Assembly (NCBI RefSeq): GCF_029428675.1
Contig: NZ_JAJNEL010000001.1
Span: 1 to 64,000 of the forward strand
DNA: 64,000 nucleotides
DNA from: Streptomyces sp. JH14
GTDB lineage: Bacteria; Actinomycetota; Actinomycetes; Streptomycetales; Streptomycetaceae
Reading direction: 5' to 3'
The notes beneath the pieces are model-generated. The model worked only from the letters and a program-made list of their open reading frames with translations, was not told where the DNA came from and searched no databases. The translations under genes and the position numbers were made by a program. The first letter of the stretch is position 1, and each line of letters begins with the position of its first letter. Positions 2,879 to 17,979 of the stretch are shown here, one piece after another.

Positions 2879-4288
2879 TCATGCGAGGCCGGCAAGCGTG
2901 AGGAGCAGGGACTTCACTTCGGTGGCCCGGACAGGTCCGGTGAACGCGTGGGGGGTGGAGCAGAGGATGAGCGGACCTTCTTCGTCGCTCATGGGGAGGC
3001 GGCCGTGGCTGCCTCGAATGGGTGAGGGGTCGAGGGGCACGACTGCCATGCGGTAGCGCATGCCGAGCTTCTTGCGGGCCACGGCGGTGGCCGCCTTGAC
3101 CCGTACGTACGGGTCCTGGGGGTCCAGGAAGAGTTCGACCGGGTCGTAGCCGGGTTTGCGGTGGATCTCGACGAGCTGCGCGAAGTCGGGGGCGCGCGCG
3201 TCGTCGAGCCAGTAGTAGTACGTGAACCAGGCGTCCGGCTCGGCGACGGCGACGAGTTCGCCGGAGCGCGGGTGGTCGAGGCCGTGTGCCTTCTTGCCCT
3301 CGTCGTCGAGGAGCTGCTCGATGCCCTGGACGTCCTGGAGAGCTTCACGGGTGACATCGAGGTCCTCGGGGCGGCGTACGTAGACGTGGGCGAGCTGGTG
3401 GTCGGCGACGGCGAAGGCCCGGGACGCCATCGGGTCCAGGTACTCCATGCCGTCCTGGGTGTGGACCTCCAGCAGTCCGGCGCGGCGCAGGGCCCGGTTG
3501 ATGTCGACCGGGCGGTCGACGCGGGTGATGCCGTATTCGGAGAGCGCCACGACGGTGCGGCCCTCGCGGCGGGCGTCGTCCAGGAGCGGGGCCATGGCCC
3601 GGTCGAGGTCGGCGGCGGCGCGGTAGGAGCGGGGGTCGTCGGGGCCGTAGCGCTGGAGGTCGTAGTCGAGGTGCGGGAGGTAGCACAGGGCCAGGTCGGG
3701 GCGGCGGGTGTCGAGGATGTGCCGGGTCGCGTCGATGATCCACTGCGAGGAGACCAGGTCGGCGCCGGGGCCCCAGAAGTGGAAGAGGGGGAACGTGCCG
3801 AACTTCTCGGTGAGTTCGTCGTGGAGGGCGGGCGGCCGGGTGTAGCAGTCGGGTTCCTTGCGCCCGTCCGCGTAGTAGACGGGGCGCGGGGTGACGGTGA
3901 TGTCGGTGTCGGCGCCCATGGCGTACCACCAGCAGATGTTGGCGACGGTGTAGCCGGGGTGGACACGGCGGGCGGCGTCCCAGAGCTTGTCGCCGGCGAC
4001 CAGGCCGTTGTGCTGACGCCACAGCAGGACGTCGCCGAGCTCGCGGAAGTACCAGCCGTTGGCGACGATGCCGTGCTCGGCGGGGGTGGTGCCGGTGAGG
4101 AAGGTGGACTGGGCGGCGCAGGTGACGGCGGGCAGCACCGTGCCCAGGGGGGCGTGGGTGCCGGACCGCCCGAGGGACTTGAGGTGCGGCATGTGGTCGA
4201 GGAGCCGGGGGGTGAGCCCGACGACGTCGAGGACGAGAAGCGGGGTGGGGGTGGAGTCCGGGGACGTACCCGTTTCGGCTGCGGTCAT
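2879..4288 (-). CDS. EboF-like nucleotide pyrophosphatase/phosphodiesterase (alkaline phosphatase superfamily)
   Basis: A 469-residue member of the type I phosphodiesterase/nucleotide pyrophosphatase family. The metal-binding start LVLDVVGL, the nucleophile region PAVTCAAQSTFLTG (threonine nucleophile) and the GIVANGWYF segment fit the superfamily, as do later Asp/His ligands around LPHLDYDLQRYGPDDP, ALSEYG and DHQLAHVYV. No signal peptide is seen. ATG 4288 overlaps the stop of EboE (ATGA) and has AAGGAG upstream; the longer open frame upstream is antisense-type noise. It is the last gene of the seven-gene operon. Phosphodiesterases of this kind are a standard member of Ebo clusters; the substrate is not known. 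It probably releases phosphate or a nucleotide from the pathway intermediate (inference). Confidence 0.85.
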   Translation of the reverse strand: MTAAETGTSPDSTPTPLLVLDVVGLTPRLLDHMPHLKSLGRSGTHAPLGTVLPAVTCAAQSTFLTGTTPAEHGIVANGWYFRELGDVLLWRQHNGLVAGDKLWDAARRVHPGYTVANICWWYAMGADTDITVTPRPVYYADGRKEPDCYTRPPALHDELTEKFGTFPLFHFWGPGADLVSSQWIIDATRHILDTRRPDLALCYLPHLDYDLQRYGPDDPRSYRAAADLDRAMAPLLDDARREGRTVVALSEYGITRVDRPVDINRALRRAGLLEVHTQDGMEYLDPMASRAFAVADHQLAHVYVRRPEDLDVTREALQDVQGIEQLLDDEGKKAHGLDHPRSGELVAVAEPDAWFTYYYWLDDARAPDFAQLVEIHRKPGYDPVELFLDPQDPYVRVKAATAVARKKLGMRYRMAVVPLDPSPIRGSHGRLPMSDEEGPLILCSTPHAFTGPVRATEVKSLLLTLAGLA

Positions 4289-5460
4289 GGGAGCTCCTTG
4301 AGGCCGAGGTCGACCAGGAGGTCGCGGGCGAGGGTGAGTTCGGCGGCTATGCCGTCGGCGAGCTGGGCGCGGGTACGGGGGCGCAGCTCGGCGGGGAGCG
4401 CCTGCCAGGTGTACGTCTCGACCTCCAGGTGACGGGTCAGCGGGTGGGCACCGCCGACCAGGCGGGTCAGCGCGGCCCCGAGCACCGGGAGGGTGGAGGT
4501 GAGCGGTGGGGCGGGTGGTGCGTGCAGCGGCACATGGAAGTGGGCTCGCCACGGGGTGCCGTCGGGCAGGGCCCGGCCGCTGACGGCTTCCTCGAGGTCG
4601 TCGGTGCCGCGCAGTCCGTGGGTGGTGAGCGTGCGGGTCTGGTGGAGGAAGCGCGGTTCGGCGAAGGCGGCGAGTGCGGCGCGCACCTCCGGCAGGTGCG
4701 GGTGTTCGGCGTGGAGCGCGGCGGAGAGCTGGGTCTTGGCGACGGGGATGCCCGCTGCGGCGAGCGCGTCGAGGGCGGTGCCGGGGTCCTCGAAGGAGGT
4801 GGCGAGGTGGCAGGTGTCGACGCAGATGCCGATGCGGTGGTGTCCGACGGCGGTGAGCGGGGCGATCGCGTCGGCGGTGGTCTCGATCGTGCAGCCCGGT
4901 TCGGGTTCGAGGCCGATCCGGATGGACTTGCCGGTCAGCTCGGCCAGGGCGTCGAGGCGTTCGGCGAGGGTGACGAGGGCGGTGTGCGCGGTGCGGGCGG
5001 CCTCGGGGTCCTCGGCGTACGGGGTGCGCCAGGCGATCGGGAGGGTGGAGACGGTGCCTTCGGTGACGTCCTCGGGGAGCAGGGTGGCGAGCAGCCGGGC
5101 GAGATCGGTGGTGTGGGCGAGCCGTTCGGGGTCCGCCCAGTCCGGCTTGTACACCCGGTACTTGACCTCTTCGGCCCCGAAGCCCTCGTACGGGAAGCCG
5201 TTGAGGGTGACGACCTCCAGACCGCGCCGGTCGAGTTCCCCGCGCAGGGAACGCAGCTGGGCGGGGTCGTTGATCAGGGTGTTCGCGGCGTCCTTGGCGA
5301 GCCAGAGGCCGATGCCGAGGCGGTCGCGGCCGAGGCGCTTGCGGACGGGCTCGCAGTGGTCGCGCAGCTGGGCGCGGACACCGTCCAGCGTCTCGGCGGG
5401 GTGCACGTTGGTGCAGTACGCGAGGTGGACGGTGGATCCGTCGGGGTGGCGGAAGCGCAT
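4285..5460 (-). CDS. eboE: EboE-like TIM-barrel protein (metabolite traffic protein EboE)
   Basis: 391 residues with a xylose-isomerase-like TIM barrel. The N-terminus RHPDGSTVHLAYCTNVHPAET is the family signature. Barrel residues appear in EVVTLNGFPYEGFG, GLEPEPGCTIE (glutamate ligand), CVDTCHLATSFED and AHFHVPLHAPPA, giving the Glu/Asp/His ligand set of a divalent-metal isomerase. ATG 5460 has GGAGGGGAG upstream and sits 4 bases after the TatD-like gene; the 3' end overlaps the phosphodiesterase by 4 bases. Translation is therefore coupled through the operon. Ebo genes are known to be needed for moving a metabolite precursor across the membrane in cyanobacterial scytonemin synthesis; the biochemical reaction of EboE is not established. 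Confidence 0.85.
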   Translation of the reverse strand: MRFRHPDGSTVHLAYCTNVHPAETLDGVRAQLRDHCEPVRKRLGRDRLGIGLWLAKDAANTLINDPAQLRSLRGELDRRGLEVVTLNGFPYEGFGAEEVKYRVYKPDWADPERLAHTTDLARLLATLLPEDVTEGTVSTLPIAWRTPYAEDPEAARTAHTALVTLAERLDALAELTGKSIRIGLEPEPGCTIETTADAIAPLTAVGHHRIGICVDTCHLATSFEDPGTALDALAAAGIPVAKTQLSAALHAEHPHLPEVRAALAAFAEPRFLHQTRTLTTHGLRGTDDLEEAVSGRALPDGTPWRAHFHVPLHAPPAPPLTSTLPVLGAALTRLVGGAHPLTRHLEVETYTWQALPAELRPRTRAQLADGIAAELTLARDLLVDLGLKELP

Positions 5461-5464
5461 CGGA

Positions 5465-6313
5465 TCACTCCCCTCCGCGGAGGATGGAGTTCCCCTCGTG
5501 GAGCGGATCGGGGGTGGTGAGGTCGAGTCGGAGTCGGCCGCTCTGGCCGTAGAAGGCGACGGGGTTGCGCCAGAGCACCTGGTCGACGTCGTCGTCGCTG
5601 AACCCGGCGGCGAGCATGGCGTCGCCGACCCCGCGGGTCTTGAGGGGATCGCTCTTGCCCCAGTCCGCGGCCGAGTTGACCAGGATCTTCTCGGTGCCGT
5701 AGGTCCTCAGGACCGCGACCATGCGGTCCTCGTCCATCTTGGTGTCGGGGTAGATGGAGAAGCCGGCCCAGCAGCCGCTGTCAACGGCGTCCTTCACGGT
5801 CGTCTCGTTGAGGTGATCGAGCACGACCCGTTCCGGGGCGAGGTGGGACTCGCGGATGACGTCGATGGTGCGCTGCAGACCGGCGAGCTTGTCGCGGTGC
5901 GGGGTGTGGACGAGGGCGGGGAGCCCGTGGTCGGCGGCGAGCTGGAGCTGGGCGGCGAGGGCGGTGTCCTCGGCGGGGGTCATGGAGTCGTAGCCGATCT
6001 CGCCGACGGCGACGACCGAGTCCTTGACGAGATAGCGCGGCAGGGCGTCCAGCACCGGAGTGCAGCGGGGGTCGTTCGCCTCCTTGGGGTTGAGGGCGAG
6101 CGTGCAGTGGTGGGCGATGCCGTACTGGGCGGCACGGAAGGGTTCCCAGCCGAGCAGGGCGTCGAAGTAGTCGATGAAGCTGGCGGGCGAGGTCCGGGGC
6201 TGGCCGAGCCAGAAGGAGGGTTCGACGAGGGCACGGACACCTGCGTCGTACATCGCCTGGTAGTCGTCCGTGGTGCGGGAGGTCATATGGATGTGCGGGT
6301 CGAAGATGCGCAT
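5465..6313 (-). CDS. eboB: EboB-like TatD-family metal-dependent hydrolase
   Basis: 282-residue amidohydrolase-fold protein of the TatD family. The HxH motif is in IFDPHIHMTSRT at the N-terminus. Further ligands sit in EIGYDSM, ALVHTPHRDK, VLDHLNE and NSAADWGKSDP, matching the usual His/Glu/His/Asp order. ATG 6313 shares one base with the stop of the EboA gene (TGATG) and follows GGAGGAG, so the much longer frame running upstream is spurious. Cytoplasmic; substrate unknown. It belongs to the Ebo operon between eboA and eboE, the neighbourhood in which this TatD subgroup is usually found. Confidence 0.87.
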   Translation of the reverse strand: MRIFDPHIHMTSRTTDDYQAMYDAGVRALVEPSFWLGQPRTSPASFIDYFDALLGWEPFRAAQYGIAHHCTLALNPKEANDPRCTPVLDALPRYLVKDSVVAVGEIGYDSMTPAEDTALAAQLQLAADHGLPALVHTPHRDKLAGLQRTIDVIRESHLAPERVVLDHLNETTVKDAVDSGCWAGFSIYPDTKMDEDRMVAVLRTYGTEKILVNSAADWGKSDPLKTRGVGDAMLAAGFSDDDVDQVLWRNPVAFYGQSGRLRLDLTTPDPLHEGNSILRGGE

Positions 6314-7002
6314 CAGGACTCCTCCGTGGGGGGTTGGGCGCTCCCCTGCTCGAGTTCGTTCGAGGGTTCGGGGAAGGGGGCGGGGGCCGTGAGGGCGAGG
6401 ACCCGGCGCAGGTCGTCGGGGACGGTGCGGCCGGCAGCGGTGCGCTCGGCCGCGAAGTCGCCGAGCATGCGGGCGAGTTCGGCGTCGCCTCGCGCGCGCC
6501 GCGCCAGTCCGTCGACGGCATCTACGGGGACACCGGTGAAGAGGCACTTGAGGATGGCGTGCCGCCATTGGTGCGCGTCGAGATGGGCGGCGGCGTACGG
6601 GCCGACGGCGGCGGCGACCAGCCGGGTGTCGTTGGTACGCAGGGCGTCCTCGACGAGCGCGAGAGCGGTGGGGCCGAGGTCCAGCCGGTGCAGGGTGAGG
6701 AGGACGGCGCGGCGTTCGGCGGCGGTGCCGTGTTCGTAGAGCCTGGTCGCGACGGGCAGACCGGCGCGGGCTTCGAGGAGCAGCAGGGCGCGCACGGAGT
6801 CGGCGTGCTCGAGTCCGCAGTGCCGGCCCGCGGCGGCGAATCTGAGCTCCCACGGGGGTACGGCGTAACGGCTGCCGGGTGCGGTGTCCGCGTGGACGGC
6901 GGTGTGGGCGGCCTCGGCGAGGGCCTCGTCGAGCCAGGCGCGTGCGGCACCGCCCAGTTGTGCGTCAAGTTGTTCGCGGGTCACCGGCGGGGTCATCGGC
7001 AT
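6313..7002 (-). CDS. eboA: EboA domain protein
   Basis: 229-residue, all-alpha, alanine- and leucine-rich protein with no signal peptide. Repeated helical pairs (for example REQLDAQLGGAARAWLDEAL, then ARAGLPVATRLYEHG and AAVGPYAAAHLDAHQWRHA) give the HEAT-like pattern typical of the EboA domain. ATG 7002 is preceded by GGGAG with 7-base spacing; the second ATG at 6996 is possible. Its start lies inside the end of the upstream isomerase gene and its stop overlaps eboB, so all three are co-translated. EboA has no known catalytic residues; I regard it as a scaffold or adaptor of the Ebo system (inference). The acidic, Pro-rich C-terminus is probably disordered. Confidence 0.82.
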   Translation of the reverse strand: MPMTPPVTREQLDAQLGGAARAWLDEALAEAAHTAVHADTAPGSRYAVPPWELRFAAAGRHCGLEHADSVRALLLLEARAGLPVATRLYEHGTAAERRAVLLTLHRLDLGPTALALVEDALRTNDTRLVAAAVGPYAAAHLDAHQWRHAILKCLFTGVPVDAVDGLARRARGDAELARMLGDFAAERTAAGRTVPDDLRRVLALTAPAPFPEPSNELEQGSAQPPTEES

Positions 7003-7874
7003 GGTGTCGCTCCCTTCGAGGACATCGACGGGATCCGGGACCGCAGGAACTCGACGGACGTCCTGGCCAGTTCGGGCCCCGCGTGGGAGTGGCGGGGCAG
7101 TTCGACGACGGTGAGGCCGTGGTATCCGGTGTCGCCCAGGGCGTCGAGCGCCTCGAGCACGGGTGGGAAGTCGATCTCGCCGTCGCCGAACGGAAGGTGT
7201 TCGTGGACGCCCCGGCGCATGTCCTCGATCTGCACGTGCCGCAGCCAGGGGGCGGCGGCCCGCACGCAGTCGGCGGGCGCGGCCGGTTCCAGGCACTGGC
7301 AGTGACCGATGTCGAGGGTGAGCCCGAGCGGTTCGGGGTCGCCGCTGAGGACACGGAGATGGTGGAAGTCCGAGAGGGTGGCGAGGAGATGACCGGGTTC
7401 GGGCTCGATGGCGAGCGGGACGCCGGTGCGGGCCGCGGCGTCGAGCACGGGGGCGAGCGCGTCCGTCAGCCGCTGCCAGGCCGTCTCAGGGCAGGTGCCG
7501 GGTGGGGTGATGCCGCTGAAGCAGTGCACGGCGTGGGCGCCGAGGTCGGCGGCGACGTCGACGGCGCGCAGCAGCAGCCGGGTCCGGACGGCGCGGGCCT
7601 CCGGGTCCGGATCGAGGAGGGACGGTCCGTGTTTGCGGCGTGGGTCGAGGACATAGCGGGCCCCCGTCTCGATGGTCACGCCGAGCCCGGACCGGTCGAG
7701 CGCGGCCGCCACGTGCCGGGTGCGTGCGGCGAGGTCCGGGGCGAGAGGGTCGAGGTGCATGTGGTCGAGGGTGAGGCCGACGCCGTCGTAGCCGAGGTCC
7801 GCGAGGAGTTCCAGGGCGTCGTCCAGGCGGAGGTCGGTGAGGCCGTTGGTGCCGTAGCCGAGGCGGATCGTCAT
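6993..7874 (-). CDS. Sugar phosphate isomerase/epimerase-like TIM-barrel protein of the ebo operon
   Basis: 293-residue AP-endonuclease-2-type TIM barrel. Ligand positions are seen in VGLTLDHMHLDPLAP, LAIEPEPGHLLA (Glu), GLTLDIGHCQCL (Asp/His), LRHVQIEDMRRGVHEHLPFGDG (Gln/Glu/His) and VVELPRHSHAG. ATG 7874 overlaps the stop of the UbiA gene by 4 bases; the stop overlaps eboA. Together with eboE it gives two TIM-barrel isomerases in one operon, so at least two carbohydrate or cyclitol rearrangements are likely. The product of the inositol-phosphate synthase encoded at the head of the operon is the obvious starting material (inference). No signal peptide. Confidence 0.82.
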   Translation of the reverse strand: MTIRLGYGTNGLTDLRLDDALELLADLGYDGVGLTLDHMHLDPLAPDLAARTRHVAAALDRSGLGVTIETGARYVLDPRRKHGPSLLDPDPEARAVRTRLLLRAVDVAADLGAHAVHCFSGITPPGTCPETAWQRLTDALAPVLDAAARTGVPLAIEPEPGHLLATLSDFHHLRVLSGDPEPLGLTLDIGHCQCLEPAAPADCVRAAAPWLRHVQIEDMRRGVHEHLPFGDGEIDFPPVLEALDALGDTGYHGLTVVELPRHSHAGPELARTSVEFLRSRIPSMSSKGATPCR

Positions 7875-9199
7875 GTGAGGCTCACCTTCCGGGCGAGGGT
7901 CCGGGCGAGGGGAACCAGCCCCATGACGGCGAGCCCGGTGGCGGCCGCTCCGGCGCGGGCGGCGAGCGCGGCCTGGAGCGGGATCATCGCCCGGATGCCG
8001 CTGCCGACGGCGCGTTGGGTGAGGGGCGCTGACGGATTGAGGGCGGCGTGGAGGAGCGGCTCGGCGGCGGTGCGGAAGTAGGTGGCGGTGAGTGCGGTGA
8101 GGAGGACGCCGGGTGGCGTGGAGGTTCCGGCCCGGGGGCGGTGGTGGTCCCCCGGCCCGTCCCTTCCCGGTAGTCGGGGCAGGCCACCGAGCCCCTGCTG
8201 CCCACGCACCGTGACGGCGCCCAGCGCGGCGACCGCCGCGAGCGCGCCGAGGGGCACGGCGGTGGAACCGCCCTGCGCCTCGTGGCGTGAGACCGCGGTG
8301 ACGGCGTAGGTGTGCGCCCCGAGCAGGGCGGCGGCCGGCACGGCAGCACGAACCGCGGAGTCGACGGGGCTCAGGGTGCGGGTGGTGCCCCGGGGAAGGG
8401 CGGTGCGCCCGGGATGGACGGTGCCGGCCCTGCGTACGGCGCCCGGCGTGCCGGTCGGGCCCTCGGTGCGGGCGATGCCGACCGGGCGGGCAGGGGCCTG
8501 TACGTGCCGGGGCGGCTCCGCGCGGCGGGGTTCGCGATCCGCGGTCGCCGTCGCCACCGCACGGCCGATCCGGCCGAGCAGCCGGGCGACCGGGCCGCCT
8601 CGCCGCTTCCCCGCCACGGACCGGGAGGGGGCGGATGCCCCGACGAAGCCCGTGGCTGTCGCGGACGGAGTGACCGCGCCAGCAGCGGGCGGGGCTGCGG
8701 TGCGTGAGCTCGTCGCACCCGTACCTGCCCCCGCCCCCGCCGTCGCCGTCGCCGTCGCCGTCGCTCCCAGCAGGAGGTCCAGTGCGCGGGCCGCCGCCAT
8801 CGCTGCCGGGCCGGCCTGGGTGTGCTTCAGGCGGAGGTCGTACGCCCAGACCGTTGCCGCGAGGCCCGTGGCCACCGTCAGGGCCGGACGGCCCGCGTGG
8901 GCGGCCAGCGTCAGACCTGCGGCCGTCAGGGCACCGGCTGCAGCCAGGGCCGCGCCGGGAGTGATCTGGCCCGAGGGGATCGGGCGGTGCGGGCGGTCGA
9001 CGGCGTCCTCGTCGCGGTCCGCCCAGTCGTTGAGGGCCATGCCCGCCTCGTAGAGACAGAGGGAGGCCCCGACAGCCAGTGCAGTGCCCCCGTTGGGGCG
9101 CCGGCCGATGGCCGCCGCCCCGGCCAGCGCATCACCGGGGACGGTGAACAGCGCCGATACCCGCAGCAGTTCGGCCCAGGCGCGTACCGCGGCCGTCAT
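7871..9199 (-). CDS. eboC: EboC-like UbiA-family prenyltransferase with long low-complexity insertion
   Basis: 442 residues, longer than the roughly 300 typical for UbiA proteins. The first aspartate-rich motif is in NDWADRDEDAVDRPHRPIPSG, following helix 2, and the conserved YDLRLKHT segment follows helix 4. Between about residues 145 and 290 the protein is a low-complexity stretch of Ala, Thr, Gly, Pro and Arg (for example ATATATATAGAGAGTG) that the family does not need. Hydrophobic helices resume after it. An integral membrane enzyme, it would move a polyprenyl chain onto an acceptor. ATG 9199 overlaps the end of the inositol-phosphate synthase gene (ATGA). The insertion contains a hexanucleotide repeat at DNA level. 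Confidence 0.8.
   Translation of the reverse strand: MTAAVRAWAELLRVSALFTVPGDALAGAAAIGRRPNGGTALAVGASLCLYEAGMALNDWADRDEDAVDRPHRPIPSGQITPGAALAAAGALTAAGLTLAAHAGRPALTVATGLAATVWAYDLRLKHTQAGPAAMAAARALDLLLGATATATATAGAGAGTGATSSRTAAPPAAGAVTPSATATGFVGASAPSRSVAGKRRGGPVARLLGRIGRAVATATADREPRRAEPPRHVQAPARPVGIARTEGPTGTPGAVRRAGTVHPGRTALPRGTTRTLSPVDSAVRAAVPAAALLGAHTYAVTAVSRHEAQGGSTAVPLGALAAVAALGAVTVRGQQGLGGLPRLPGRDGPGDHHRPRAGTSTPPGVLLTALTATYFRTAAEPLLHAALNPSAPLTQRAVGSGIRAMIPLQAALAARAGAAATGLAVMGLVPLARTLARKVSLT
8740..8763. repeat. Hexanucleotide tandem repeat (CCGTCG)x4 inside eboC
   Basis: Four perfect CCGTCG units in the low-complexity part of the prenyltransferase gene. On the coding strand they give alternating Ala-Thr codons. 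Units of six keep the reading frame, so length changes would be tolerated. Confidence 0.8.
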
Positions 9200-10314
9200 T
9201 CCTGCCCCCGCAGCGTTTCGGCGAAGGCCAGCAGCTGCAGATACTGGTCGGAGAGTGCGGCGGGCCCGCCGTCCGGGTCCTTGAAGTAGAAGCCGAGTTC
9301 GGGCCGTGGGCCCACCAGTCCCGCTTCATGGGCGCGGGCGAGCAGCCGCGCCAGGTCCAGGACCAGCGGGGCGGCCAGCGCCGAGTCACACCCCTGCCAT
9401 GTCGTCTGGAGGACCATACGCGCCCCGAGGAATCCGTCGAACGCGATGTGGTCCCAGGCCGTCTTCCAGTCGCCGAGGGCCGGCACGTCGTCGATGTGCA
9501 CCTCGCCCTCGGGAGCGGCGCCCAGGGTGTCGGCGAGAACCCGTTCCTTGCCCGCGTTCTTCGCCGCCGCCGCGGCCGGGTCGGCCAGCGCCGCCCCGTC
9601 CCCGCCGCCCAGCAGATTCGTGCCGGACCAGGCCCGTACGGGCAGGGCGCGCTGCACGAACATCGGGGCGAGTACGGAGCGGAGCAGCGTCTGGCCCGTC
9701 TTGCCGTCGCGGCCTGCGTGAGGAAGTCCGCATTCCGCGACGGCGTCCTGGAGCGCGGGGGTGCGCAGCCCGGTCGAGGGGGTGAAGTTGACGTAGGGGC
9801 AGCCGGCCCGGAGCGCCGCCGCGGCGTAGAGCGAGCTGGCGGGCAGCCGGTGCTGCCCGGGTTCCGGGAGCGGTTCGGTCGAGGCGACGTTCACCACGAC
9901 GGTGCGGGCCAGGTCGTTGCGGCGGCCGAAGTCGGTGAGGTCGGCGGCGAATGCGGCGATGAGCTCTTCGTCGGTGCGGGTGTCGCCGGGCAGCGGCCCA
10001 CCGGGGCGTATCTCCGCGTCGGCCGCGGCGAGTTCGGACCGTACTGCCGAGGGCAGCCCGTGCGGGAGCACTCCCCCGGCGGCCAGGGCCTCGGCCCGCT
10101 TGGGCAGGGGGCAGTCGACGGTGTCGTGTCCGCCGAATACCAGGGAGGTCAGCGCCGGCAGCCCGCTGCCGGCGAAGGGCGCGGTCTCGGTGACCATGCC
10201 CGCCGCCGGGTGGAGCCCCGCCGCGACGGCCGCGCAGCCCGCTGTGGCGGTGGTGGCGACGGAGCCGCGTGCTCCGATGAACCAGACTCCGGTACGAACG
10301 GCATGTGCTGACAC
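9196..10314 (-). CDS. Inositol-3-phosphate synthase (myo-inositol-1-phosphate synthase)
   Basis: 372 residues. An NAD-dependent sugar-phosphate cyclase converting glucose 6-phosphate to inositol 3-phosphate. The Rossmann start WFIGARGSVATTATAGC, the NFTPSTG loop, GRDGKTGQTLLRSVLAPMF (catalytic lysine region), SGTNLLGGGDG, and GDWKTAWDHIAFDGF all fit the family. GTG 10314 is chosen because GGGAGG lies 7 bases upstream. It is the first gene of the Ebo operon and overlaps eboC by 4 bases. Known Ebo clusters carry a dehydroquinate-synthase-like cyclase (EboD); none is present here. This enzyme may take the cyclase place and supply a cyclitol for prenylation (inference). No clear promoter was found between 10315 and 10400. 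Confidence 0.88.
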   Translation of the reverse strand: MSAHAVRTGVWFIGARGSVATTATAGCAAVAAGLHPAAGMVTETAPFAGSGLPALTSLVFGGHDTVDCPLPKRAEALAAGGVLPHGLPSAVRSELAAADAEIRPGGPLPGDTRTDEELIAAFAADLTDFGRRNDLARTVVVNVASTEPLPEPGQHRLPASSLYAAAALRAGCPYVNFTPSTGLRTPALQDAVAECGLPHAGRDGKTGQTLLRSVLAPMFVQRALPVRAWSGTNLLGGGDGAALADPAAAAAKNAGKERVLADTLGAAPEGEVHIDDVPALGDWKTAWDHIAFDGFLGARMVLQTTWQGCDSALAAPLVLDLARLLARAHEAGLVGPRPELGFYFKDPDGGPAALSDQYLQLLAFAETLRGQE

Positions 10315-10455: not shown

Positions 10456-13400
10456 CTATGCGGCGGGCAGCTCCTTCAACTCGATGTTGCGGAAGGACAC
10501 CTGGTCGTCGGCCCCGTGGTTCTGCAGGCCGATGTAGCCGTCCTTCAGGCTGCGTACGGGATCGGTGTTGGTGAAGTCGTTGATCTTGACTCCGTTGAGG
10601 AAGACCTGGAGCCGTTCACCCTGGACCTTGATCTCGTAGCTGTTCCACTGGCCCGGCGGCCGCAGGACCTGGTCGCGGGCCTTGATGTTCGCCGCCTTGA
10701 AGGTGTAGATGGCGCCCGTGGTGCGGTCGGGGGCGTCGGTGGCGTCGATCTGGACCTCGTAGCCGTTGTTCACCGCGGACCAGGGGTCGTCGGACTCCGG
10801 GAAGCCGACGAAGACACCGGAGTTGTCGTCGCCCGCCAGCTTCCAGTCGAGCTTCAGCGAGTAGGACCCGAGCTCCTTGGGCTGGTAGGTGAGGAGGCCC
10901 AGGCCGCCCTCGGAGCGGAGTTCACCGTCGACGACGTTGAACTTCCCCGGGCCGGCCTGCTTCCAGCCTTCCAGCGTCTTGCCGTTGAAGATCGGCCGGT
11001 AGCCGGTGTCCGGCTTGCAGTCGGCACTGACCTGGCCGGCCGCGTACCGGACACCGCCGAGGAGGAGCTGGCGGAAGGCCGGTTCGGCGTACGACTCCTT
11101 GGTGTGGCCGAGGCCGGTGTAGAAGGAGCGGCCGCCCCCGTAGGACTGGCACCAGGTGATCGGGTGATCGCCCTTCATGGTGCCGCCGGTGTAGGTCGTC
11201 TCGTCGAGCGTGGCGAGGACCTTCACCTTGTCGCGCGGGTTGGTGCGGTAGTTGTACAGCTCATCGGTTCGGACCCAGGCGTCGTCGAGGTGGGCGGTCG
11301 CCGGGTTCTTGTGGTCCTCGACGCGGACGGTGACGGGCTGGATCGCGGGGTGCCCGGCGAAGTACGAGCCGACCAGTCCGCCGTAGAACGCCCAGTCGTA
11401 CTCGGTGTCCGCGGCGGCGTGCACGCCCATGTAGCCGCCACCGCCGGCGATGTAGTTCTCGAACGCCTTCTGCTGGTCGGCGTTGAGAACGTCACCGGTC
11501 GTGGAGAGGAAGACGACGGCGTCGTAGCGGGCCAGGTTGCTGGTGGTGAACTGGCCTGCCTCCTCCGTGGCGTCGACGGTGATGTTGCTGCTCGCGCCGA
11601 GTTCCTTCAGTGCGGCGATGCCCTCGGGAATCGCGTCGTGGCGGAAGCCGGCCGTCTTCGAGAAGACCAGGACCCGCTTGGCGGTCCGGTCGGGGGCGCT
11701 GTTGGAGAGCTCGAAGTCGTCGATGTCGTAGAGCGCACCGTCGCCGCCCTTGAAGACCAGGAAGAGTTCCGTGGCCTGCTTCGGGACGCCGCGCAGCGGT
11801 ACGTCGATGTCCTGGAAGGTCTCCCAGCTGCCGGTCACCGGCACCGGGGCGGAGCCGAGGATCTTGCCGGTCGCGGAGCCGGTCCGTACCTCGAGGAAGC
11901 CACCGGCGCCACCGGACGAGATCCGGGCGGTGAGCTTGGTGGAGTCACCGAGGATGTACGGCTTGAAGGCGATCCAGTCGTCGTTGTTGATGTCGCCGAC
12001 CGTCTTGCCGCCCTCTGCGTTCGCCTTGTCGAACGTCTGGATGCCAGACGACGAGGTGAAGTGCTCGGCCTGCCGGTGGCGGGGCTGGAGCTGCGCCTGG
12101 TCGTGGCCGGAGAGTGCGGCCTGGCCGCCGCCCCCGCCATCGGTGTACGAGGCGTCGATGACTCCGAAGATGTTGGCGTTCGGGTCGTGCCCGCCGTCCA
12201 TCTCGGTCTTGACGGTGCCGGAGCAGCCGTGCTCCGTGGTGATCGGGTGGCCATGGTTGTCATGGCCGAGTACGAAGCTGACCTGGACCTTCGAGCAGTC
12301 GATCGTGCCGTCCTCCGGGTCGGTGACGGTCACCTTGAACGGGATCTCGTCGCCGAAGGTGAACAGCTGCCCGTCACCCGGGAGTTCCAGATTCACCGTG
12401 GGTGCGGTGTTGCCGACGGTCACATGGGCACTTGCCGAACCGGTGCGGCCGGTGGGGTCCTTGGCGGTGACGGTCGCGGTGTAGGTGCCGTTCTTCTTGT
12501 ACGTGTACGTGGGGTTCGCGGCGGTCGACGTACCGCCGTCGCCGAAGTCCCAGGCGTAGGTGAGCGAGTCGTTGTCGGAGTCCGTGGTGCCCGCGGAGGA
12601 GAACTGCACCTTCAGCGGTGCGGTACCGGACGTCTTGTTGGAAGTGGCCTCGGCGATCGGCGAGTGCCCGCCGGTGGCGTTCTCGATGCGGTAGAGCGCG
12701 GAGTGCTCGTCGCCGCCGAACCAGGAGAGGCCGTAGTCCAGGACGTACAGCGCCCCGTCCGGGCCGAAGGCCATGTCCATCACCTGGGTCCCGGACCACG
12801 GGATGTCGTTGATGGACTGAACGGCGCCGTCGCCGTCCTGCTCGATCCGCTTGATCCACTGCCGGCCGAACTCACCGGCGAAGAAGTCCCCGTCGTACGC
12901 CTCGGGGAACTTCACGGGCGAGTCGAGGTTCGGGTCGTAGTGGTAGACGGGGCCGCCCATCGGCGACTCGGAGCCGGTGCCGAACTCGGGCACGGATCCG
13001 CCGTCGTACGGGATCCAGGCGGGCTGCGCCGGGGGAAGGTCGACCAGGCCGGTGTTGTGCGGCGAGGTGTTCTTCGGTGCGGCGCAGTCGAAGGTCGCGC
13101 CGGACGTCTGCGTCGCGAAGTCGTAGTCGACGAAGGGATCGTTGTTCCCGGTGCAGAACGGCCAGCCGAAGTTGGCCGCCTTGGTCACCCGGGCGAACTC
13201 GACCTGTCCGCCGGGTCCGCGCTTCGGGTCGGCCGCGCCCGCGTCGGGACCGTAGTCACCGACGTACGCGATACCGGTGGCCTTGTCGACGCTGAAGCGG
13301 AACGGGTTGCGGAAGCCCATCGCGTAGATCTCGGGCCGCGTCTTGTCCGTGCCCGGGGCGAAGAGGTTGCCCTCGGGGATGGTGTACGAGCCGTCCTCCG

Positions 13401-14181
13401 CGACCTTGATCCGGAGGAGCTTGCCGCGCAGGTCGTTGGTGTTGCCCGCGGAGCGCCGGGCGTCGAACGCTGGGTTCCGGTCCGGGCGCTCGTCGATCGG
13501 TGCGTAACCGTCGGAGGCGAAGGGGTTGGAGTCGTCGCCGGTCGACAGGTACAGGTTGCCCTGCGCGTCGAAGTCGATGTCGCCGCCGACGTGACAGCAG
13601 ATGCCGCGCGACGTCTTGACGTCGAGGACCTTCTTCTCGCTGCTCAGGTCGAGGGTGCCGTCCTCCTTGAGGACGAAGCGGGAGAGCCGGTTGACGCCGT
13701 CGAACTTGGCGAAGTCGGCGGCGGTGCCTGTCTCCGGGGCGTCGCCGGACGGGGTGTCCAGCGGGGGCGCGTAGTAGAGGTAGATCGCCCGGTTCGTGTC
13801 GAAGTCGGGGTCGACGCCTACGCCCTGGAGGCCTTCCTCGTCGTGCGAGTAGACGGGCAGGACACCGGAGACCCTGGTGTTGCCGGCGCTGTCGGTAATC
13901 CGCAGCTCGCCGCTGCGCGAGGTGTGCAGGACGCTGCGGTCCGGGAGGACCGCCAGCGACATGGGTTCGCCGGTTTCGGCGGCACCCTTGGCGAGGGTGA
14001 CCTGCTGGAAGTCCTCGGCCGCCGCGGCATCGGTGGCGGCCGGCGAGGCCGCGGACGCTGCGGAGGCGCCGGGGGTGGCGCCGAGGGCGAGGGTGGCGGC
14101 GGTGAGGAGGCCGCCGGTGAGCAGGGCGAGGGACTTACGGAGCCCGGTCCTGCGTTTGCTTCTGCTTCTGCTTCTGTGCAC
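10456..14181 (-). CDS. Secreted PQQ-type sugar dehydrogenase / PKD / carbohydrate-binding / ThuA / 3-keto-disaccharide hydrolase fusion
   Basis: 1241 residues. The Sec signal has basic RSRSRSKRRTGLRK, then LALLTGGLLTAATLALG and an ASA-type cleavage region. Domains: glucose/sorbosone-dehydrogenase-type beta propeller (about 60-500; CCHVGGDIDFDAQGNLYLST, GFRNPFRFSVD); PKD (about 507-590; YAWDFGDGGTST); CBM6-like module (about 700-825); ThuA glutamine-amidotransferase-like domain (about 834-1050; KTAGFRHDAIPEG, GVHAAADTEYDW); and the DUF1080 3-keto-disaccharide hydrolase domain (about 1057-1241; FNGKTLEGWKQ, DDNSGVFVGFP). GTG 14181 follows GGAGG with good spacing; earlier in-frame codons lack a ribosome site and would bury the signal. 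Oxidation and 3-keto-glycoside cleavage in one extracellular protein is my inference. A dyad operator lies 185 bases upstream. Confidence 0.88.
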   Translation of the reverse strand: MHRSRSRSKRRTGLRKSLALLTGGLLTAATLALGATPGASAASAASPAATDAAAAEDFQQVTLAKGAAETGEPMSLAVLPDRSVLHTSRSGELRITDSAGNTRVSGVLPVYSHDEEGLQGVGVDPDFDTNRAIYLYYAPPLDTPSGDAPETGTAADFAKFDGVNRLSRFVLKEDGTLDLSSEKKVLDVKTSRGICCHVGGDIDFDAQGNLYLSTGDDSNPFASDGYAPIDERPDRNPAFDARRSAGNTNDLRGKLLRIKVAEDGSYTIPEGNLFAPGTDKTRPEIYAMGFRNPFRFSVDKATGIAYVGDYGPDAGAADPKRGPGGQVEFARVTKAANFGWPFCTGNNDPFVDYDFATQTSGATFDCAAPKNTSPHNTGLVDLPPAQPAWIPYDGGSVPEFGTGSESPMGGPVYHYDPNLDSPVKFPEAYDGDFFAGEFGRQWIKRIEQDGDGAVQSINDIPWSGTQVMDMAFGPDGALYVLDYGLSWFGGDEHSALYRIENATGGHSPIAEATSNKTSGTAPLKVQFSSAGTTDSDNDSLTYAWDFGDGGTSTAANPTYTYKKNGTYTATVTAKDPTGRTGSASAHVTVGNTAPTVNLELPGDGQLFTFGDEIPFKVTVTDPEDGTIDCSKVQVSFVLGHDNHGHPITTEHGCSGTVKTEMDGGHDPNANIFGVIDASYTDGGGGGQAALSGHDQAQLQPRHRQAEHFTSSSGIQTFDKANAEGGKTVGDINNDDWIAFKPYILGDSTKLTARISSGGAGGFLEVRTGSATGKILGSAPVPVTGSWETFQDIDVPLRGVPKQATELFLVFKGGDGALYDIDDFELSNSAPDRTAKRVLVFSKTAGFRHDAIPEGIAALKELGASSNITVDATEEAGQFTTSNLARYDAVVFLSTTGDVLNADQQKAFENYIAGGGGYMGVHAAADTEYDWAFYGGLVGSYFAGHPAIQPVTVRVEDHKNPATAHLDDAWVRTDELYNYRTNPRDKVKVLATLDETTYTGGTMKGDHPITWCQSYGGGRSFYTGLGHTKESYAEPAFRQLLLGGVRYAAGQVSADCKPDTGYRPIFNGKTLEGWKQAGPGKFNVVDGELRSEGGLGLLTYQPKELGSYSLKLDWKLAGDDNSGVFVGFPESDDPWSAVNNGYEVQIDATDAPDRTTGAIYTFKAANIKARDQVLRPPGQWNSYEIKVQGERLQVFLNGVKINDFTNTDPVRSLKDGYIGLQNHGADDQVSFRNIELKELPAA

Positions 14182-14623
14182 GAGTGTCCTCCGGAAAGTG
14201 CCGGTTGTACGGGCGGGTAGTGCCGAGCCGTTCCGCGCGGGGACTGCCGCGCAGGTCACATGAGGGCCTGATGGGGCCCCGGTGACGAGAGTTATGTCGT
14301 GTACACCCCATGGACCGTAGACCCGTTCGTCCTGCACGGAAAGCCTTTGCGCAGCAGTTGAGTTGAACTTTTTCCTGCATCAGGACAAAGGCCGGTGAGG
14401 GCATGCGGAATCGCCCCGGGGGTGCGCGGAGTGACGCCGGGCGGGGGCTGTTCCCCCTGCCCGTCCTTCCCGAAACCGGGGCAGTGCCCCGGGCCCCCGG
14501 TCCTCGGACGCCGGGCAGGCCTGGTCGTGCCGGGCAGCACCCAAGGCGCCGCCCGGACGGAGAATCAGGCTTCCCCGGCGATCGAGGAGCGGGGTTCCGG
14601 GGGCCGAGCCCCCGGAAACACCG
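14182..14623. other. Intergenic region, 442 bases
   Basis: Upstream region of the giant secreted protein gene. It holds the 25-bp dyad element (14366-14390) and, downstream of it, AT-richer sequence around 14285-14320 that could carry the promoter (TACGGT and CATAACT on the minus strand). No gene with coding bias was found between 14391 and 14623. Confidence 0.6.
14366..14390. promoter_or_regulatory. Candidate ROK-type operator (dyad), copy 1
   Basis: AACTTTTTCC, 5 bases, CAGGACAAAG. Read on the other strand it is CTTTGTCCTG-ATG-CAGGAAAAAG, a dyad with 9 of 10 arm positions paired. The same spacing and arms recur at 22096-22120 before the ROK regulator gene. Assignment to that regulator is inference. 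Confidence 0.55.
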
Positions 14624-15628
<1,005 letters not shown>

Positions 15629-15640
15629 GCGCGGAACCTC

Positions 15641-16873
15641 CTACGGGGTGTGTACCGGGGTGAGTACGGAGTTCTTCTCGGCGCTCTCCTCCACCGCCGC
15701 GAGCACCCGCTGCACCTGGAGTCCGTCGGCGAACGACGGCACGGGGTCCGCCCCTTCGGCGATCGTCCGGACGAGGTCGCGGGCCTGGTGGATGAAGGTG
15801 TGCTCGTAGCCGAGGGCGTGACCCGGCGGCCACCACGCCTCCAGGTACGGATGCTCGGGCTCCGTGACGAGGATGCGGCGGAACCCCGCGGTGGTGGCGG
15901 GTTCGGTGTGGTCGTGGAAGGACAGCTCGTTCAGTCGCTCCAGGTCGAAGGCGAGCGAGCCGCGCTCCCCGTTGAGCTCCAGCCGCAGCGCGTTCTTGCG
16001 GCCCGCCGCCATACGCGTCGCCTCGAACGAGGCCAGCGCTCCGGAAGCGAGCCTGCCGGTGAACAGAGCCGCGTCGTCGACGGTGACCGCCCCCCGCGCC
16101 TCGCTGTCGGCCGAGCCCGAGAGCCCCGCCGACGCTCCTGCGAGCAGGGGCCTGTCCCGTACGAAGGTCTCGGACATCGCGGACACCCCCACCAGCAGCT
16201 CCCCCGCCAGATACTGCGCGAGGTCGACGATGTGGGCCCCGAGGTCGCCCAGCGCACCGGATCCGGCGCGCTCGCGGTCCAGCCGCCAGGTGAGCGGCGA
16301 CTCGGGATCGACCAGCCAGTCCTGGAGGTAGGTGGCCCGTACGTGCCGCAGGGAGCCGAGCCTGCCGTCGCTGATCATCTTCCGTGCGTAGGCGATCGCC
16401 GGCGCCTTGCGGTAGTTGAAGCCGACCATCGCCACCTGGCCACGGGCCCTGGCCCGTTCCGCGGCCTCGGTCATGGCCTCCGCCTCGGCAACCGTGTTGG
16501 CGAGCGGCTTCTCGCACAGCACGTGCTTGCCGGCCTCCAGGGCGGCGATGGCGATTTCCGCATGGCTGTCGCCGGGAGTGCAGATGTCGACGAGCTGGAC
16601 GTCGTCCCGGGCGATCAGGGCGCGCCAGTCGGTCTCCGCCGCCGCCCAGCCGTGACGCTCGGCGGCGGCGGTGACCGCCGCACGGTCGCGTCCGCAGATC
16701 GCGGCGAGAGCCGGCCGCATCGGCAGGTCGAAAACGTGTCCCACGGTGCGCCACCCCTGGGAGTGGGCGGCGCCCATGAACGCGTATCCGACCATGCCGA
16801 TCCCGAGCGGTCGCTCCGGCTTCCTCGTCGGCGGCGCAGCGGCCTCCTGCTCCGTCTCTTCCCTACGGGCCAT
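15641..16873 (-). CDS. Gfo/Idh/MocA-family NAD(P)-dependent oxidoreductase
   Basis: 410 residues. The Rossmann motif is in IGMVGYAFMGAAHSQGW at about residues 24-40. The dinucleotide-site motif VLCEKPLANTVAEAE contains the conserved EKP lysine, and the C-terminal domain has GDLGAHIVDLAQYL, with the catalytic Asp-x3-His pattern. The N-terminal 20 residues are a charged extension. The ATG at 16873 is taken although its ribosome site is modest. It sits between the ABC importer binding protein and the TIM-barrel isomerase, all on the minus strand. Homologues include inositol dehydrogenases and ThuB-like 3-dehydrogenases. With ThuA next door a ThuB-like role is plausible (inference). Confidence 0.87.
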   Translation of the reverse strand: MARREETEQEAAAPPTRKPERPLGIGMVGYAFMGAAHSQGWRTVGHVFDLPMRPALAAICGRDRAAVTAAAERHGWAAAETDWRALIARDDVQLVDICTPGDSHAEIAIAALEAGKHVLCEKPLANTVAEAEAMTEAAERARARGQVAMVGFNYRKAPAIAYARKMISDGRLGSLRHVRATYLQDWLVDPESPLTWRLDRERAGSGALGDLGAHIVDLAQYLAGELLVGVSAMSETFVRDRPLLAGASAGLSGSADSEARGAVTVDDAALFTGRLASGALASFEATRMAAGRKNALRLELNGERGSLAFDLERLNELSFHDHTEPATTAGFRRILVTEPEHPYLEAWWPPGHALGYEHTFIHQARDLVRTIAEGADPVPSFADGLQVQRVLAAVEESAEKNSVLTPVHTP

Positions 16874-16941
16874 ACGGGCTTCCTCCTCATCGGTGCTTCG
16901 GTGGGGGCTGCAGGAGGGTCAGCACCCTCCCGGACGGCGGA

Positions 16942-17979
16942 TCAGCTGAAGCCCGTCGGCAGGTACTGGTCGATGTTGTCCTTGGTGACGACGGCGGAGT
17001 AGAGGGTGAGGCTGGTCGGGATCTCCAGTTCGGAGAGACCGCCGATGCCCTTGCCCTGGCCGAGCGCACGCGCCAGGTCGATGGCGGACGCCGCCATCGT
17101 CGGCGGGTAGAGGACGGTGGCCTTCAGGACGCTGTTGTCGGCCTTGATGGCGTCCATGGCGGACTTCGCCCCGGCTCCGCCGACCATCAGGAACTCGTCC
17201 CGGCCGGCCTGCTGGATGGCGCGCAGCGCACCGACACCCTGGTCGTCGTCGTGGTTCCACAGTGCGTCGAACTGCTTCTGCGCCTGCAGAAGTTGGGCCA
17301 TCTTCGCCTGGCCGGACTCAACGGTGAACTCGGCGGCCTGCCGCGCGACCAGCTTGACGTTGGGGTAGTTCTTGAGGGCGTCGGCAAATCCCTGGCTGCG
17401 CTGCTTGGTGAGCTCCAGGTTGTCGATACCCGCGAGCTCGACGACCTTGGCGTCCGCCTTGTCCTTGAGCTGCTCGCCGATGAACGTACCGGCATTGAGG
17501 CCCATGCCGTAGTTGTCGCCGCCGACCCAGCAGCGGTAGGCCTGCGGTGAGGCGAAGATGCGGTCCAGGTTGATGACGGGGATGCCCGCCTTCATCGCTT
17601 CCAGACCGACCTGGGTGAGCGCCTTGCCGTCGGCGGGGAGGATGACGAGGACATCGACCTTCTTGTTGATGAGGGTCTTGACCTGGCCGATCTGGGTGGC
17701 GGTGTCGTTGGAGCCCTCGGTGATCTCCAGGGTCACCTCGGAGTACTTCTCCGCCCGCGACTTGGCGTTGTCATTGATGGCGTTGAGCCACCCGTGATCG
17801 GCCTGCGGGCCGGCGAAGCCGATGGTGACCGCCTTGCCGGGCTTGTCGTCGGCGGCCGGCTGATTGGTCTGCGCGGTCTCCGACTTCTTGGGCTCGTTGC
17901 TGGTGCAGGCGGTGAGGAGGGCGCCCGCGGAGACGGCTGCGGTGCCGAAGAGCAGGCCTCTGCGGCTGGTTTCTGGCAT
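16942..17979 (-). CDS. Sugar ABC transporter substrate-binding lipoprotein (ribose type)
   Basis: 345 residues, periplasmic-binding-protein fold 1 (RbsB-like). The N-terminus carries RRGLLFGTAAVSAGALLTAC, a lipoprotein signal with the lipobox cysteine in LTAC, so the protein is anchored outside the membrane. The family pattern follows: VTIGFAGPQADHGWLNAIND, DVLVILPADGKALTQVGLEA, GIPVINLDRIF. I use ATG 17979 rather than the upstream start at 18015, because the latter puts unrelated residues before the signal peptide. It is the last gene of a three-gene importer set after ATPase and permease. Sugar or cyclitol ligand likely; exact ligand unknown. Confidence 0.88.
   Translation of the reverse strand: MPETSRRGLLFGTAAVSAGALLTACTSNEPKKSETAQTNQPAADDKPGKAVTIGFAGPQADHGWLNAINDNAKSRAEKYSEVTLEITEGSNDTATQIGQVKTLINKKVDVLVILPADGKALTQVGLEAMKAGIPVINLDRIFASPQAYRCWVGGDNYGMGLNAGTFIGEQLKDKADAKVVELAGIDNLELTKQRSQGFADALKNYPNVKLVARQAAEFTVESGQAKMAQLLQAQKQFDALWNHDDDQGVGALRAIQQAGRDEFLMVGGAGAKSAMDAIKADNSVLKATVLYPPTMAASAIDLARALGQGKGIGGLSELEIPTSLTLYSAVVTKDNIDQYLPTGFS

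Follow-up and report, generated by a model that had tools for sequence, protein, structure and literature searches.

The ebo operon (eboABCDEF) occurs in eustigmatophyte plastids, Bacteroidota and Cyanobacteria (PMC5133447, PMC6282210). The Ebo system is found across many phyla and has been linked to the export of scytonemin. In Nostoc punctiforme, deletion of the ebo cluster abolished scytonemin; in-frame single deletions were made of eboA, eboB, eboC, eboE and eboF, eboD being left out of this analysis, and the Ebo proteins were proposed to cooperate in bringing the monomer of scytonemin into the periplasm, a prenylated carrier perhaps taking part (PMC6282210). A hybrid isoprenoid-cyclitol product of EboD and EboC has also been proposed, with sedoheptulose-7-phosphate as a guess for the substrate of EboD; EboD-type cyclases release phosphate, and clusters lacking eboD were mentioned for a few taxa (PMC5133447). 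The operon analysed here lies in the first 64,000 nucleotides (the window) of contig NZ_JAJNEL010000001.1 of Streptomyces sp. JH14, where its seven genes occupy positions 2879-10314 of the minus strand. Similarly to eboABCDEF, it combines in one operon an EboA domain, a TatD-like EboB, a UbiA-type counterpart of EboC, EboE and an EboF-like protein. Unlike eboABCDEF, it has a predicted inositol-3-phosphate synthase (INO1) and an epimerase/isomerase-like TIM barrel (hereafter TIMx) and no EboD, the predicted sugar-phosphate cyclase, and its prenyltransferase belongs to the SCO3242 family, scoring under the EboC cut-off. As it lacks EboD, we regard it as an INO1-type variant of the Ebo operon, not as the canonical operon.

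Exchange of EboD for INO1 and TIMx

Using profiles for INO1, TIMx and EboA to EboF built from annotated loci, we scanned 122 loci, namely the window, 12 plasmid loci (of 48 matches), 28 loci from 26 other EboE-positive genomes (there being 27 such genomes among 396), 80 GTDB loci (limited to the 80 top-scoring relatives of the EboE of Gemmatirosa) and one Terrabacter locus. A locus was counted as an Ebo cluster when it comprised EboE plus two or more of EboB, EboC and EboF. Among the 101 clusters so defined, which come from genomes related to one another, 64 have EboD, 31 have INO1, six have neither and none has both. INO1 and EboD stand together in none of these clusters, so that the Ebo pathway likely requires a cyclitol (a ring-shaped sugar alcohol) for which two alternative routes exist. 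The six clusters with neither gene are L087 and L104, to which we return below, L050 (a second cluster in a genome with a complete one), L076 (broken), L080 (on a short contig) and L133 (Nostoc, with four PF01761 matches elsewhere in its genome). Of the 21 loci that are partial or orphan, eight have EboD and 13 have neither gene.

Nor did the INO1-type genomes examined have an EboD elsewhere. In strain JH14, neither the operon nor the rest of the assembly contains one: NF004852, the EboD model, gives 176 bits where 333 are required, and of three PF01761 matches just one passes its cut-off, an open frame that combines an AroK-like portion with an AroB portion (361.7 bits with TIGR01357, cut-off 305). 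As this assembly is rated 81% complete, the tests on many genomes weigh more than this single absence. NF004852 exceeded its cut-off in 0/26 INO1-type genomes (best score 202.5 bits) and 0/3 others (G244, G400 and G407), versus 3/3 EboD control genomes (563-571 bits). The possibility that INO1-type genomes keep an EboD elsewhere was rejected, the scans with PF01761 (the JH14 genome and seven others) and NF004852 (32 genomes) giving, in INO1-type genomes, AroB-like scores under the cut-off only. A sequence-only reading of this DNA had seen no EboD, had proposed that INO1 is swapped for it, and had named as tests whether the two exclude each other across ebo neighbourhoods and whether a separate eboD lies elsewhere in the genome; both tests came out in favour of the swap, as did the second exchange described below, while the concomitant exchange of TIMx had escaped that reading. 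Its further idea, in which cyclitol formation would be the conserved step and the product a prenylated or lipid-linked cyclitol derived from inositol phosphate, is a hypothesis, so that the reading as a whole is supported in part.

TIMx was found in 30/31 INO1 clusters versus 0/64 EboD clusters. Likewise, among 36 genomes searched (the larger ones being scored on the 69 best first-look candidates), TIMx was found in 5/5 ebo genomes without EboD and 0/26 with EboD; in two of these five, G400 and G407, it lies outside the ebo cluster. TIMx being exchanged along with INO1, the swap is one of two genes for one. In Actinobacteria, EboA has been reported as fused to a xylose-isomerase-like protein (PMC5133447), which probably corresponds to a TIMx-EboA fusion.

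EboD was exchanged for INO1 and TIMx at least twice independently. First, in trees of EboB, EboE and EboF (a quick one of 94 loci and a careful one of 38 of those), the actinobacterial INO1 clusters form one group, whereas a Gemmatirosa plasmid cluster (L046), which has INO1 and TIMx and no EboA match, nests inside the EboD clusters of Deinococcus, Acidobacteriota, Verrucomicrobiota and one actinobacterium (G301). Second, forcing all 12 INO1 rows into a single clade made the tree 198 log units worse (approximately unbiased test, p-AU 8.3e-5), so that one ancient swap behind all INO1 clusters was rejected. Third, the INO1 tree places the Gemmatirosa enzyme apart from the actinobacterial Ebo INO1s, among relatives of which several are named Gemmatimonadota. 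The reverse case also occurs: EboD is present in G301, an actinobacterium from a different family (L057). The replacement of EboD by INO1 and a TIM barrel at least twice amounts to a natural experiment, and it suggests that both types of operon share a cyclitol intermediate.

The variant is frequent among Streptomyces genomes, about two thirds of those sampled having both EboE and an Ebo-type INO1. Calling Ebo-type INO1 at E <= 1e-50 with a profile that includes three non-ebo INO1 rows, we found EboE in 106 and Ebo-type INO1 in 104 of 151 genomes: 103 have both, three have EboE alone (G439, G490 and G563), one has INO1 alone (G552) and 44 have neither. Ten places where EboE had no INO1 nearby were opened (L204 to L213). 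The G563 contig ends within EboC (L206). In G486, the merged array L213 has TIMx and, within the stretch, no INO1. The eight INO1-less second clusters opened are all in genomes with an Ebo-type INO1 elsewhere.

The same seven gene families stand together in 24/28 other actinobacterial loci fetched (L055, with INO1 as a fragment, among them), so the grouping is not due to chance.

A possible cyclitol head for a proposed prenylated product

The operon INO1 is likely an active enzyme, as predicted from its conserved active site. Its closest solved relative is the myo-inositol-1-phosphate synthase (mIPS) of Archaeoglobus fulgidus (PDB 1u1i, E 1.6e-58), and residues K252, K256, K284, K345, N233, D203, D239 and D310 (numbering of the operon protein) are invariant in 16 aligned INO1s. 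Their 1u1i equivalents, by our own count along the alignment, are K274, K278, K306, K367, N255, D225, D261 and D332. The K-x-x-x-K pair and the lysine network of INO1 have been described as catalytic (PMC5614600, PMC11348189), and the enzyme starts from glucose-6-phosphate and retains the phosphate in its product (PMC5614600). The genome has a separate mycothiol-type INO1 (C1:3536119, 725 bits with TIGR03450, cut-off 638), so that the operon INO1 (26.6 bits) is an extra copy. The operon enzyme also forms a separate deep clade in the INO1 tree, and the idea that it is an ordinary mycothiol INO1 displaced into the operon was rejected on these two grounds.

The prenyltransferase has the SCO3242 family as its best match and the EboC model NF035940 (prenyl_rel_EboC) as its second-best (113.8 bits, cut-off 250); the gene described earlier as EboC falls in a neighbouring family. 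Its translation contains the Asp-rich motif NDWADRDED and a long insert of low complexity. Inserts of this kind may be frequent, as the prenyltransferase profile matches several relatives in two separate parts. Its best non-Ebo model is geranylgeranylglycerol-phosphate geranylgeranyltransferase (PRK12882).

From these data we hold, with about even confidence, that INO1 and TIMx take the genomic place of EboD and likely supply the cyclitol of the pathway by another route. A cyclitol or its phosphate would then be the intermediate shared by both types of operon, with INO1-TIMx and EboD as alternative sources and EboC as the enzyme that prenylates it, and the product of the INO1-type operon would be prenylated, membrane-bound and derived from inositol. 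In the pathway that we propose, INO1 is predicted to convert glucose-6-phosphate into inositol-1-phosphate; TIMx, judging from its fold and its co-occurrence with INO1, may alter the stereochemistry of inositol-1-phosphate or act on its keto form; EboC may prenylate the resulting cyclitol or its phosphate; and EboB, EboE and EboF may trim or modify the prenylated cyclitol. By analogy with the proposal made for scytonemin in Nostoc, the end product would be a membrane-held prenyl-cyclitol that moves a metabolite across the membrane. More tentatively, we suggest that Ebo systems in general make such an export carrier, its head coming from a heptose (through EboD) or from glucose-6-phosphate (through INO1 and TIMx). 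Should this suggestion be true, most Streptomyces would make an undescribed inositol-derived prenyl lipid, using an enzyme analogous to that of archaeal ether-lipid synthesis. INO1 enzymes have an established substrate and product, the substrate of EboD being a guess, and the INO1 variant opens labelled inositol as a tracer of the Ebo pathway.

Several observations weigh against a cyclitol supplied by INO1 and TIMx in place of EboD. The second swap rests on one plasmid record, L046. L087 and L104 (Rhodospirillales) have neither INO1 nor EboD alongside, the INO1 and TIMx of their genomes lying elsewhere; since this INO1 is outside the ebo cluster, both were counted as having neither. L060 is an INO1 cluster without TIMx, and the INO1 of L055 is truncated. 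In Streptomyces, G490 and G439 have EboE and TIMx (L204 and L205) and no Ebo-type INO1 at E 1e-50, making them true exceptions, and six second clusters (L207 to L212) have TIMx without INO1. Concerning the chemistry, the likeness of the prenyltransferase to the glycerol-phosphate enzyme is far below the cut-off (55.5 versus 296 bits). Moreover, as INO1 keeps the phosphate that EboD-type cyclases release, the products differ at that step; unless EboF removes the phosphate, the subsequent steps cannot be the same.

This difference in phosphate, together with the different starting sugars (glucose-6-phosphate for INO1, sedoheptulose-7-phosphate as guessed for EboD in PMC5133447), also fits a rival scheme in which INO1 and TIMx feed an extra branch, such as inositol for a head group or a secreted glycoside, the EboD step having been lost and the actinobacterial product being different. 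The INO1-type clusters do have neighbours of their own, relatives of a glucose/sorbosone dehydrogenase (GSDH) lying beside 18/29 INO1-type loci, all 18 of them actinobacterial, versus 0/72 EboD-type loci, and TIMx is also found near INO1 in a YcaO cluster unrelated to ebo. However, each of the two independent losses of EboD coincides with the presence of INO1 and TIMx, and INO1 never stands beside a retained EboD in the 101 clusters; we consider the extra branch rather unlikely.

It is less probable still that the INO1 homologue makes another cyclitol phosphate, perhaps nearer to the product of EboD, as does the five-membered-cyclitol-phosphate synthase of PDB 6k96. Both enzymes belong to the same superfamily, and the residue that precedes K284 varies, being W in 8/13 aligned ebo-cluster INO1s, N in A. 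fulgidus and L183, and A in L203 and L192. Yet the archaeal mIPS is much closer to the operon INO1 than 6k96 is (E 1.3e-9), the eight residues listed above do not vary, and the INO1-less second clusters have an Ebo-type INO1 elsewhere in their genomes.

The least probable alternative, which we regard as quite doubtful, is that the prenyl acceptor is aromatic and quinoline-like, as for UbiA-297, the product of the cyclase (EboD or INO1) being aromatised or joined later: the EboC proteins of Maribacter, Zobellia and Algoriphagus do farnesylate 8-hydroxyquinoline-2-carboxylic acid in membrane assays (PMC9235831), which also speaks against our proposal, but these assays covered 14 aromatic acceptors (six accepted), with no polyol or cyclitol phosphate reported in the accessible parts of that paper, and no known aromatising enzyme family occurs in the INO1-type operon.

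Genes of the operon and their surroundings

The gene families were assigned by profile scans; together with the gene calls, these bear out the coordinates and the order of seven overlapping minus-strand genes given by the sequence-only reading. The genes overlap by about four nucleotides or nearly abut, as at INO1/EboC (9196-9199), EboC/TIMx (7871-7874) and TIMx/EboA (6993-6996), some starts being inferred. The EboA protein falls short of the narrower EboA family model NF035937 (52.5 bits, cut-off 320). A profile search for a solved structural relative of EboE gave none at E 0.01.

Table 1. Features of the INO1-type operon and its large neighbour (window positions)
Feature	Position	Strand	Support
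INO1 (Ebo-type inositol-3-phosphate synthase), first gene of the operon	9196..10314	-	PF07994 111.2 bits and PF01658 103.6 bits, both above cut-off
UbiA-type prenyltransferase, SCO3242 family, EboC counterpart	7871..9199	-	NF045897 (SCO3242_trans) 369 bits, cut-off 260
TIMx, epimerase/isomerase-like TIM barrel	6993..7874	-	PF01261 146 bits
EboA-domain protein	6313..6996	-	NF035938 156 bits, cut-off 50; start codon inferred from ATGA overlap with TIMx
EboB, TatD-like metal hydrolase	5465..6313	-	PF01026 49 bits, cut-off 27; Ebo-seed profile 477 bits; start inferred
EboE, TIM-barrel 'metabolite traffic' protein	4285..5460	-	NF035939 424 bits, cut-off 250
EboF-like type I phosphodiesterase/nucleotide pyrophosphatase	2879..4288	-	PF01663 229 bits (above cut-off); Ebo-seed profile 756 bits; start inferred
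Neighbour of 1293 amino acids, not core: GSDH, PKD, CBM6, ThuA and 3-keto-disaccharide hydrolase domains	10456..14337	-	Pfam

Positions 33-39,897 of the window form a perfect 39.9-kilobase terminal inverted repeat, with a mismatch-free inverted copy at the opposite end of contig C1 (6,580,952 bases); the operon lies inside this repeat and is therefore present twice in the assembly.

The operon is flanked (window 10456-16873 and 1669-2895) by the gene of the large GSDH-PKD-CBM6-ThuA-3-keto-hydrolase protein, two more TIM barrels and a Gfo/Idh/MocA oxidoreductase, and relatives of these flanking genes adjoin many INO1-type loci. The exported-looking large neighbour may point to a connection with extracytoplasmic oxidised sugars; a literature search for a 3-keto-hydrolase/ThuA/sorbosone protein gave no match.

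A separate conserved cluster encodes INO1, a methyltransferase, a Gfo/Idh/MocA protein, YcaO, TIMx, a glycosyltransferase and PIG-L, and looks like an inositol-based natural product pathway. It was located in L183 (11003-19657), L203 (6777-16518) and L202 (9764-10576), the hosts being a Rhodospirillales metagenome-assembled genome and an actinobacterium. L087 and L104 had been considered as a third INO1 swap, which was rejected; their INO1 lies elsewhere, in the genome of L104 within a YcaO/glycosyltransferase/PIG-L cluster with TIMx.

Seven INO1-less clusters, namely L205 (the only cluster of G439) and the second clusters L207 to L210, L212 and L050, have three extra genes in common upstream of EboC. 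By Pfam, they encode an FAD amine-oxidase-like protein, an inositol-monophosphatase-family protein and a gamma-glutamyltranspeptidase (L205 copies, 13294-17935). In addition, L102, L108, L115, L116, L118, L136, L143, L146 and L157 contain an EboE-like gene as the sole ebo gene of the stretch; these lone genes come from Proteobacteria, Actinobacteria and Verrucomicrobia.

Relation to described systems

A literature search, many subscription papers being beyond its reach, recognised no report of INO1 in an ebo cluster, and the word inositol does not occur in the main texts of PMC5133447 and PMC6282210. The INO1 of the operon resembles the A. fulgidus mIPS over nearly its full length and keeps the catalytic lysines; it differs by its place in an ebo operon, as an enzyme distinct from the mycothiol-type INO1 of its host. 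Archaeal geranylgeranylglycerol-phosphate geranylgeranyltransferase prenylates a polyol phosphate, the glycerol-phosphate precursor of lipids. It is the nearest model outside Ebo for the window prenyltransferase, yet the match stays far under its cut-off. UbiA-297, the EboC of Maribacter, is similarly a UbiA prenyltransferase within an ebo cluster, but its cluster has been described with eboD and the acceptors assayed were aromatic (PMC9235831). Lastly, in the laboratory strain S. coelicolor, SCO3242, a 'putative transferase', and SCO3243, a 'myo-inositol phosphate synthase', have been listed within the CDA antibiotic cluster (PMC3610822), so that the operon has probably been seen before without being recognised. 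The two locus tags are consecutive and SCO3242 names the family of the window prenyltransferase; the remaining operon genes presumably accompany the pair, which should make this variant testable.

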